Notes under the pieces: model-generated
The model's input: the letters and a program-made list of their open reading frames with translations, nothing else
Told to the model about the DNA's origin: nothing
Databases searched by the model: none
Origin: Desulfovibrio sp.
GTDB lineage: Bacteria; Bacillota; Dethiobacteria; DTU022
Reading direction: 5' to 3'
DNA length: 37,936 nucleotides
Assembly (NCBI GenBank): GCA_020060545.1
Contig: JAGUZX010000123.1
Location: 1-37,936 of the forward strand
In this document: piece by piece, positions 987 to 3,200 of the stretch
Layout: the number at the start of each line of letters is the position of its first letter
How positions within the stretch are numbered: the first letter of the stretch is position 1
Made by a program: the position numbers and the translations under genes

Positions 987-1015
987 TTGATAATACGCCG
1001 GTAACGTATTATAAT
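987..1015 (+). promoter_or_regulatory. Sigma-A-type promoter with embedded palindrome, upstream of the Spo0E/macro gene
   Basis: TTGATA (987-992), a 17-nt spacer and TATAAT (1010-1015) form a near-consensus promoter, with the GTG start about 45 nt downstream. An 8-bp inverted repeat, ATAATACG (990-997) and CGTATTAT (1005-1012), fills the spacer and enters the -10. That position is typical of a repressor operator. Confidence 0.7.
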
Positions 1016-1059
1016 CAACTGGTCAGAAGTGATCATCGATTGATCCAAAGGGGAAAAGT

Positions 1060-1839
1060 GTGGTCGAAAAATATCTATTCGCCGTGATTGAAAAGTTGCG
1101 CACAGAACTGTTATCAGCCTTTGGCGATCGGTATAATTTTGAAGATCCTGCCGTTCAAAAAAAAAGCAGAAAGCTGGACCGGGCAATAAACCTGTTGATG
1201 AGGCAGCAGCGCCGCGGAAAGAATAAAAAGACAGCCGGATCTTCATTTGAAACAGGAAAACAGGATCCACACCTTGAATTAGAAAACGAGGTGAGCGGCA
1301 TGGAAACTGTTTTCAGAACCATTGGGGCTTCACGGGTCGAAATTGTGCGCGGGGATATAACCGGGCAGGACACGGAAGCGATTGTGAACGCGGCCAATAA
1401 TACGCTTGCACCGGGTGGCGGGGTATCCGGGGCGATTCACCGCGCCGCCGGCCCGGGACTCTGGGAAGAATGCCGCAGCCTGGGCGGCTGCGCCACCGGT
1501 GAGGCGAAGATCAGCGGCAGCCACGGGCTTAAGGCGCGGTATGTCGTCCACACCGTCGGTCCGGTATACAGCGGATCGGAGCAGGATCCGCTTTCGCTGC
1601 GCAGCTGTTACCGCAACTCCCTGCAGGCAGCCCTGGAGAGCGGGATTAAGTCGATCGCTTTTCCGTCCATCAGTACAGGGATTTTCGGCTACCCCGTAAC
1701 CGAGGCCGCGGCGGTGGCGCTGGAGGCGGTGCGCGGTTTTTTGGAGGAAAAAGCGGGCATCGAGCTGGTCCGCTTTGTCCTTTTCAGCGAAGCGGACTTC
1801 GAGGTTTACGCTAAAGCGTTGGAAGAAACGGTCGATTAG
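1060..1839 (+). CDS. Spo0E-like domain fused to a macro domain (ADP-ribose binding/deacylase)
   Basis: 259 residues with GTG start. Residues about 5-50 match the short helical Spo0E-like family: a helix with IEKLRTELL and the signature S-x-x-L-D at residues 36-40 (SRKLD). Spo0E proteins dephosphorylate Spo0A~P, a sporulation regulator. A charged linker (about 51-80) leads to a macro domain (about 85-259) with IVNAANNTLAPGGGVSGAIH and SISTGIFGYP, the ADP-ribose binding loops of the YmdB/MacroD group, which can remove acetyl groups from O-acetyl-ADP-ribose. An in-frame ATG at 1300 (Met81) has a good ribosome binding site (GAGGTGAG, 1288-1295), so a separate macro protein may also be made. No terminator is obvious after it. 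The fusion is seen directly; the joint function is inference. Confidence 0.8.
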   Translation: MVEKYLFAVIEKLRTELLSAFGDRYNFEDPAVQKKSRKLDRAINLLMRQQRRGKNKKTAGSSFETGKQDPHLELENEVSGMETVFRTIGASRVEIVRGDITGQDTEAIVNAANNTLAPGGGVSGAIHRAAGPGLWEECRSLGGCATGEAKISGSHGLKARYVVHTVGPVYSGSEQDPLSLRSCYRNSLQAALESGIKSIAFPSISTGIFGYPVTEAAAVALEAVRGFLEEKAGIELVRFVLFSEADFEVYAKALEETVD

Positions 1840-2014: not shown

Positions 2015-2089
2015 GCGCCCGTAGCTCAGGGGGAGAGCGCCTGCTTGACACGCAGGAGGCCACAAGTTCAAATCTTGTCGGGCGCACCA
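2015..2089 (+). tRNA. tRNA-Val (anticodon GAC)
   Basis: A complete cloverleaf is visible: acceptor GCGCCCG (2015-2021) pairs with CGGGCGC (2079-2085); D stem GCTC/GAGC; anticodon stem CCTGC/GCAGG around the loop TTGACAC with anticodon GAC at 2047-2049; T stem ACAAG/CTTGT with loop TTCAAAT. The discriminator is A2086 and the CCA end is encoded (2087-2089). It reads the valine codon GUC (and GUU by wobble). Confidence 0.96.
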
Positions 2090-2132: not shown

Positions 2133-2234
2133 AGATCCGGGTATGCCGAAACGGCCCTGAAGCCTTGATCTTTATTACTGCTTTTAAATTACAATTAATT
2201 TTGAGCGACCCGATTGAGCGCGGGAGGGTGGAGC

Positions 2235-3200
2235 GTGCCGGCCAATTTAACCCAACAGTACCATAAAGCCGAGGAGCAGTACCGCCGGGCGAAAACGCCT
2301 GAGGAGAAAATTAAAGCCCTGCAGGAGATGCTGGCGGTGATCCCGAAGCACAAGGGCACGGAGAAGCTGCAGGCCGACATCAAGAGCCGTATCGCCCGCC
2401 TGAAAGAGGAAGGGAAAAAGAAAAAGCAGTCCCGCGGCTTCAACCCTTTTGGCGTGGAAAAGCAGGGTGCGGGGCAGGTTGTCCTGGCCGGTTATCCCAA
2501 CAGCGGCAAGTCAGCCCTGGTGGGCGCCCTCTCCCGGGCCAAGGTCAAAGTCGCGGATTATCCTTTCTCCACCCCGCTGCCGGTTTCCGGGATGATGCCG
2601 TACGAGGACACCTATATCCAGCTGGTAGACACGCCGCCCGTATCTCCGGATAATATCCCGCCGGGCATCATCGGCACGTTCAGGGAAGCCGACGCCCTGC
2701 TGCTGCTGGTGGACGCCTCGACGGGTGAATGCCTGGATCAGCTGGAAGGGCTGCTGCAGCTGCTGCAGGAGCGGGAGGTAATCGACCTGTCCGAAGAAGG
2801 TGAGATCATCGCCCCGATCCCGTTCCTGGTGGCGGCCAACAAGATGGATCTGCCGGGAGCCGCCGATAACCTGGCGGTCCTGCGCGACTTGCGGCCGGAC
2901 GTAGAGATTTCCGCCATCTCCAGCACCGGATCCGGCCTGGAGCAGCTGAAAGAGAAGCTGTTTGCGGTCCTGGACATTATCCGCATTTACGGCAAGGCGC
3001 CGGGGCGTCCCGCGGATATGACGCAGCCGTTTATCTTGAAGCGGGGCAGCACGGTGATCGATTTTGCGGAGATGGTGCACAAGGACTTTCCCGAAAAGTT
3101 AAAAAGCGCCCTGGTCTGGGGCTCAACCCGTTTTGACGGGCAGGCGGTCCCCCGGGATTATGTGCTGGAGGACCGGGATATTGTTGAGCTGCAGCTGTGA
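2235..3200 (+). CDS. DRG/Obg-type GTPase with C-terminal TGS domain
   Basis: A 321-residue P-loop GTPase. The GTG at 2235 is chosen because GGGAGGGTGGAG lies just upstream; an in-frame TTG at 2214 lacks this. A basic helical N-terminus (about 1-70, ending in KKKKQSR) precedes the G domain: G1 GYPNSGKS, a G3 variant DTPP in place of DxxG, and G4 NKMD. The last 60-70 residues (from about ILKRGSTVIDFAEMVHKDF) are a TGS domain, found in DRG GTPases, ThrRS and RelA/SpoT. Family members usually associate with ribosomes or RNA. It appears to be transcribed alone, bounded by the tRNA terminator upstream and another terminator downstream. The precise role is unknown. Confidence 0.85.
   Translation: MPANLTQQYHKAEEQYRRAKTPEEKIKALQEMLAVIPKHKGTEKLQADIKSRIARLKEEGKKKKQSRGFNPFGVEKQGAGQVVLAGYPNSGKSALVGALSRAKVKVADYPFSTPLPVSGMMPYEDTYIQLVDTPPVSPDNIPPGIIGTFREADALLLLVDASTGECLDQLEGLLQLLQEREVIDLSEEGEIIAPIPFLVAANKMDLPGAADNLAVLRDLRPDVEISAISSTGSGLEQLKEKLFAVLDIIRIYGKAPGRPADMTQPFILKRGSTVIDFAEMVHKDFPEKLKSALVWGSTRFDGQAVPRDYVLEDRDIVELQL

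Follow-up and report, generated by a model that had tools for sequence, protein, structure and literature searches.

Within a stretch of 37,936 nucleotides (hereafter the window), we found a gene in which a Spo0E-like domain is joined in frame, through a linker, to a macro domain, and in which a ribosome-binding site and ATG are retained directly ahead of the macro part, so that the locus probably makes both a Spo0E-linker-macro protein of 259 aa and the macro domain alone (179 aa). We tentatively read this locus, with a probability of about 0.45, as encoding a negative regulator of Spo0A, of the Spo0E type, joined to a macro protein that binds ADP-ribose, so that a ligand would tune or direct the brake on Spo0A. 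Spo0E phosphatases are known mostly as tiny single-domain proteins with poorly understood input signals, and for most bacterial macro domains the role in the cell is open. The physical and translational link of the two across three genera gives a concrete hypothesis, namely that ADP-ribose metabolites feed Spo0A control, and raises a possible connection between NAD metabolism and spore formation that has so far not been described. The features of the locus are listed in Table 1.

Table 1. Features of the spo0E-macro locus and its surroundings (positions in the window).
Feature	Position	Strand	Remarks
Sigma-A-type promoter TTGATA-N17-TATAAT, 5' of the fusion gene	987..1015	+	11/12 consensus positions
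Weak Shine-Dalgarno AAAGGGG of GTG 1060	1047..1053	+	Longest exact anti-Shine-Dalgarno match, 4 nt
Fusion gene, Spo0E-like + linker + macro	1060..1839	+	GTG start, 259 aa, no internal stops
Spo0E-like domain, residues 1-50	1060..1209	+	Pfam PF09388; predicted helices
Spo0E signature SRKLD, residues 36-40	1165-1179	+	S36-RKL-D40 intact
Linker, residues 51-80	1210..1299	+	Mostly predicted disordered, poorly conserved
Internal Shine-Dalgarno GAGGTGAG and in-frame ATG	1286..1302	+	ATG 1300-1302 is Met81; putative second start, 179 aa
Macro domain	1300..1839	+	Pfam PF01661, Foldseek
tRNA-Val(gac), separating the fusion gene from the conserved block 3' of it	2015..2089	+	
TGS-domain GTPase	2214..3200	+	Syntenic marker 3' of the macro gene in G001, G024, G010 and G012

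Profile searches supported both domain assignments. The SpoOE-like family (PF09388) matched residues 10-48, scoring 29.2 bits over the full protein and 32.0 bits with residues 1-80, above the curated Pfam cut-off of 23 bits, and the Macro family (PF01661) matched residues 109-220 with 143.3 bits (E 4e-42; cut-off 22 bits). The NCBIfam model NF001664, "O-acetyl-ADP-ribose deacetylase", matched residues 92-256 at 210.3 bits against its cut-off of 200. These results bear out the original prediction, which had placed a Spo0E-type match at residues 5-50 with the SRKLD signature at 36-40, and a macro domain at residues 85-259; its coordinates, 1060-1839, were right, and both domains lie in one frame. 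A chance match of the Spo0E part is ruled out, since the copies in the relatives G001, G016 and G024 all score 45-47 bits (45.7 bits for the fusion of G001). The genomes compared are draft assemblies, and an assembly artefact is unlikely, because the in-frame fusion recurs in G001, an independent assembly from a different genus, and the frame through SRKLD is intact. In the AlphaFold2 model of the 259-aa protein (mean pLDDT 85.8), the Spo0E part forms a predicted helical hairpin (helices at residues 2-21 and 30-58, block pLDDT 66-83), residues 60-79 of the linker are disordered (pLDDT <50), and the macro fold is predicted at residues 83-258. The top solved Foldseek match of the macro part was the O. 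iheyensis MacroD structure 5fud (42% identity, E 2.7e-21, rmsd 1.4-1.5, target TM 0.89-0.90). Promoter-like sites numbered four in the region, against 1.1 expected. Divergent from the fusion gene, at 206-829 on the minus strand, lies a LexA/CI-type regulator with HTH_3 and S24-peptidase-like domains.

The original prediction had pictured a single protein; the fusion is real, and the macro domain alone is possibly made too, from the start at 1286-1302 that had been overlooked. A Shine-Dalgarno sequence with its ATG stands ahead of the macro domain in the window (GAGGTGAGCGGCATG, within 1286-1302) as well as in G001 (GGAGGTGATTGAGATG), with exact anti-Shine-Dalgarno matches of 7 and 9 nt, respectively. 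In a 206 kb sample of the window's genome, which served as the null for internal starts, a match of at least 7 nt was present at 4 of 660 internal in-frame ATGs, the window's own included (3 of 659 for the others). The internal ATG sits exactly where stand-alone orthologous macro genes start, and in most stand-alone relatives a good Shine-Dalgarno sequence precedes a start that lies 5 to 10 codons ahead of the aligned region, at this same place. That so strong a signal is kept in both fusions at the stand-alone start makes two products probable. Between the two fusions, identity is 38% in the Spo0E part, 75% in the macro part and 27% in the linker, and the persistence of the Shine-Dalgarno sequence in this otherwise unconserved linker suggests that the second start is selected for.

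The original prediction had pointed to related genomes as the place to look for the fusion, and to parts that are always separate genes as the outcome against it. The fusion recurs in G001, of another genus in the same family, with 62-64% identity over residues 4/5-256, and in genus g17 (G016 and G024) spo0E and macro are neighbouring genes, separate but overlapping, a form that had likewise escaped notice. In these two genomes the genes lie in different frames, the TGA of spo0E is overlapped by the ATG of the macro gene by 1 nt (TGATG), and a Shine-Dalgarno sequence (GGAGGTGA or GGGGGTGA) lies inside the 3' end of spo0E. A stop/start overlap of this kind, with the Shine-Dalgarno sequence in the upstream gene, is the classic arrangement of translationally coupled genes. 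The link is thus that of a coupled pair, fused in two of three genera. In the sister genomes G010 and G012, the orthologous macro gene stands at the same locus without an upstream Spo0E. After the TGS-domain GTPase come LemA and DUF2207 in G001 and a DNA methyltransferase in G012 and G024, a block that matches the window's, and the contig of G016 stops just past the macro gene; the downstream block common to the window and its relatives therefore places the macro gene at a single conserved site. The four macro domains linked to Spo0E formed one clade in a tree of 65 macro domains (SH-aLRT 98), and did so again in a smaller tree (97/96). One clade at one conserved locus is explained by a single event in which spo0E joined the macro locus. 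The grouping of the window's copy with that of G001 had support of only 67/79 in the smaller tree, so that either the fused or the overlapping form may be the older. The series of macro alone, overlapping genes and in-frame fusion with the old start kept makes this locus a case for studying how gene fusions originate. Contig C74 of G024 (L008/L094) carries a macro locus identical to the one in G010; as G024 has an estimated contamination of 7%, the contig is probably foreign.

The Spo0A side was approached through co-occurrence. The window's genome has Spo0A (Spo0A_C match of 153.8 bits, G000:C135). Spo0A was searched for in 27 genomes of the family (f1, G000-G026). Each of the 10 that have the regulator also has one or more Spo0E domains, and of the 17 that lack it, 16 lack Spo0E too; the exception, G026, is a draft of 400 contigs in which Spo0E is present and Spo0A was not detected. 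This tracking of Spo0A by Spo0E supports Spo0A as the target and an anti-Spo0A role of the Spo0E part. In C. difficile Spo0E, the Asp of the SxxxD motif has been called critical (PMC11115286). Control of the window gene through a Spo0A box was not supported. A perfect box (TGTCGAA) near the promoter occurs only in G016 and G024, 5' of spo0E and about 14 nt past TATAAT (L061 and L060), and is absent in the window and G001; it suggests that the spo0E-macro pair of genus g17 is controlled by Spo0A.

In the macro domain, the ADP-ribose-binding loops are intact (GDIT, NAAN, GGGV and STGIFGYP). The Asp of the MacroD His/Asp dyad (Asp102 of MacroD2) is replaced by Ser123, in GGGVSG, and the surrounding macro subclade has Ala or Ser at this position. 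Hydrolysis is uncertain with Ser in place of the catalytic Asp, and the domain may be a hydrolase or a reader; the Af1521 macro domain, with Ala there, was reported active (PMC5413906). Sirtuins were present in six of six genomes tested, and no DarT was found in six genomes searched for DarT, as distinct from other ADP-ribosyltransferases, which rules out a DarT-type system. Sirtuins make O-acetyl-ADP-ribose. With regard to the proposed link from ADP-ribose or NAD to the phosphorelay, co-occurrence thus speaks for the Spo0A half of the original prediction, and control of sporulation by ADP-ribose or NAD is plausible, with indirect support from the fold, the binding motifs and the sirtuins.

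Under our preferred reading, spo0E would have come to sit directly 5' of a resident macro gene, the two would have become translationally coupled, and in the window's genome and G001 the two frames would have run together. One messenger would then give two products, the full-length protein from GTG1060 and the macro domain alone from the internal ribosome-binding site and ATG1300. The Spo0E hairpin would dock on Spo0A and strip its phosphate, while the tethered macro domain would bind an ADP-ribose metabolite, for example sirtuin-made O-acetyl-ADP-ribose, or an ADP-ribosylated partner, and the NAD/deacetylation state could thereby tune or direct the brake on sporulation. The joining of Spo0E to GGDEF/HD domains elsewhere in the class speaks for this reading; the fast divergence of the Spo0E part, the replaced MacroD Asp and the Spo0E of G026, where no Spo0A was detected, speak against it. 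A more specific form, in which a Spo0A phosphatase has a built-in sensor of ADP-ribose or O-acetyl-ADP-ribose, free macro domain competes for the ligand and sirtuin/NAD sets the threshold of sporulation, seems rather unlikely to us.

The strongest rival, and a substantial possibility, is an incidental fusion, in which two operon genes lost the stop between them, the macro domain is made mainly from the internal start, and Spo0E carries an inert tail with no signalling. A linker of such length stays open in 0.19 and 0.25 of shuffles, that is, about 20-25%; an open linker is therefore not rare by chance, and the in-frame fusion could be neutral. The retained internal Shine-Dalgarno sequence and ATG, the disordered, unconserved linker and the two separate products kept by genus g17 also fit such an origin, which is harder to reconcile with a fused frame common to two genera at the macro identity given above, and with a pair kept in all three genera having it, though macro alone fills the locus in G010 and G012.

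Two further explanations give one of the domains a different task. The Spo0E hairpin could serve for docking rather than as a phosphatase and bring a macro hydrolase to Spo0A or to a kinase of the phosphorelay, and the hydrolase would remove ADP-ribose there. The intact binding motifs, the NF001664 score above cut-off and the reported activity of Af1521, a macro domain lacking the Asp, make this conceivable, but the replacement of that Asp by Ser and the lack of DarT in the genomes searched count against it, and we consider it improbable. We also know of no ADP-ribosylated Spo0A or kinase, which weakens it further. Alternatively, the N-terminus could be a decayed Spo0E-like sequence, a mere translated leader that couples or tunes macro translation, as its faster divergence and lower third-position GC (0.50 vs. 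0.70) might indicate. The signature S and D, D29-P30 and the I-N-L motif are, however, invariant in all four linked Spo0E copies, the profile scores of the relatives are high, and spo0E shows a dN/dS of about 0.3 between G016 and G024, where it is under purifying selection by this estimate; we regard such a leader as very improbable.

The fusion was rare in the genomes searched. It was found only in the window's genome and G001 among 98 genomes of the class, and only in the former among 398 genomes of the phylum at E <= 1e-70; none was found in viral contigs, and the plasmid matches listed comprised macro domains and no fusion. A widespread fusion is rejected by these searches. Nothing was found for "Spo0E" together with "macro domain" in the open-access literature searched, which is not proof of absence and agrees with the earlier statement that no described Spo0E-macro protein was known.

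Neither the Spo0E nor the macro part is new by itself, and it is fair to claim novelty for their combination with an unusual dual-start layout. With the Spo0E proteins of B. subtilis and C. difficile (PF09388; PMC11115286), the window's domain has in common the helical hairpin (predicted here), the SxxxD motif, occurrence in Spo0A-containing genomes and a score above the Pfam cut-off. Described members are small single-domain proteins, whereas the present one continues in frame into a macro domain; the C. difficile study filtered for 40-100 aa and would miss a fusion of 259 aa (PMC11115286). The macro part shares its fold and ADP-ribose-binding loops with MacroD-type proteins (human MacroD1/2, E. 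coli YmdB, O. iheyensis MacroD and NF001664), but differs from them in Ser123 for the dyad Asp, in belonging to an Ala/Ser subclade and in its N-terminal Spo0E extension. Af1521 of Archaeoglobus also lacks the catalytic Asp (PMC5413906), but is more distant (1hjz, 75.8 bits vs. 157 for MacroD2) and has no partner domain. In the same class, Spo0E-like domains are found at the C-terminus of GGDEF-HD_5 proteins by Pfam (L088:1763-4537 in G089, which also has PAS domains; L089:323-1867 in G079; L090:1614-2831 in G072), and N-terminally in one HD_5 protein from the window genome's family (L091:1159-1893 in G018). The open-access literature searched held nothing on Spo0E together with HD-GYP. A link from cyclic-di-GMP signalling to Spo0A through the GGDEF-HD_5-Spo0E proteins is possible. 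In these proteins, as in the window's, Spo0E is joined to a nucleotide-signalling domain, but the partner is of cyclic-di-GMP type, not macro. These GGDEF/HD proteins hint at Spo0E as a portable output module of nucleotide signalling.
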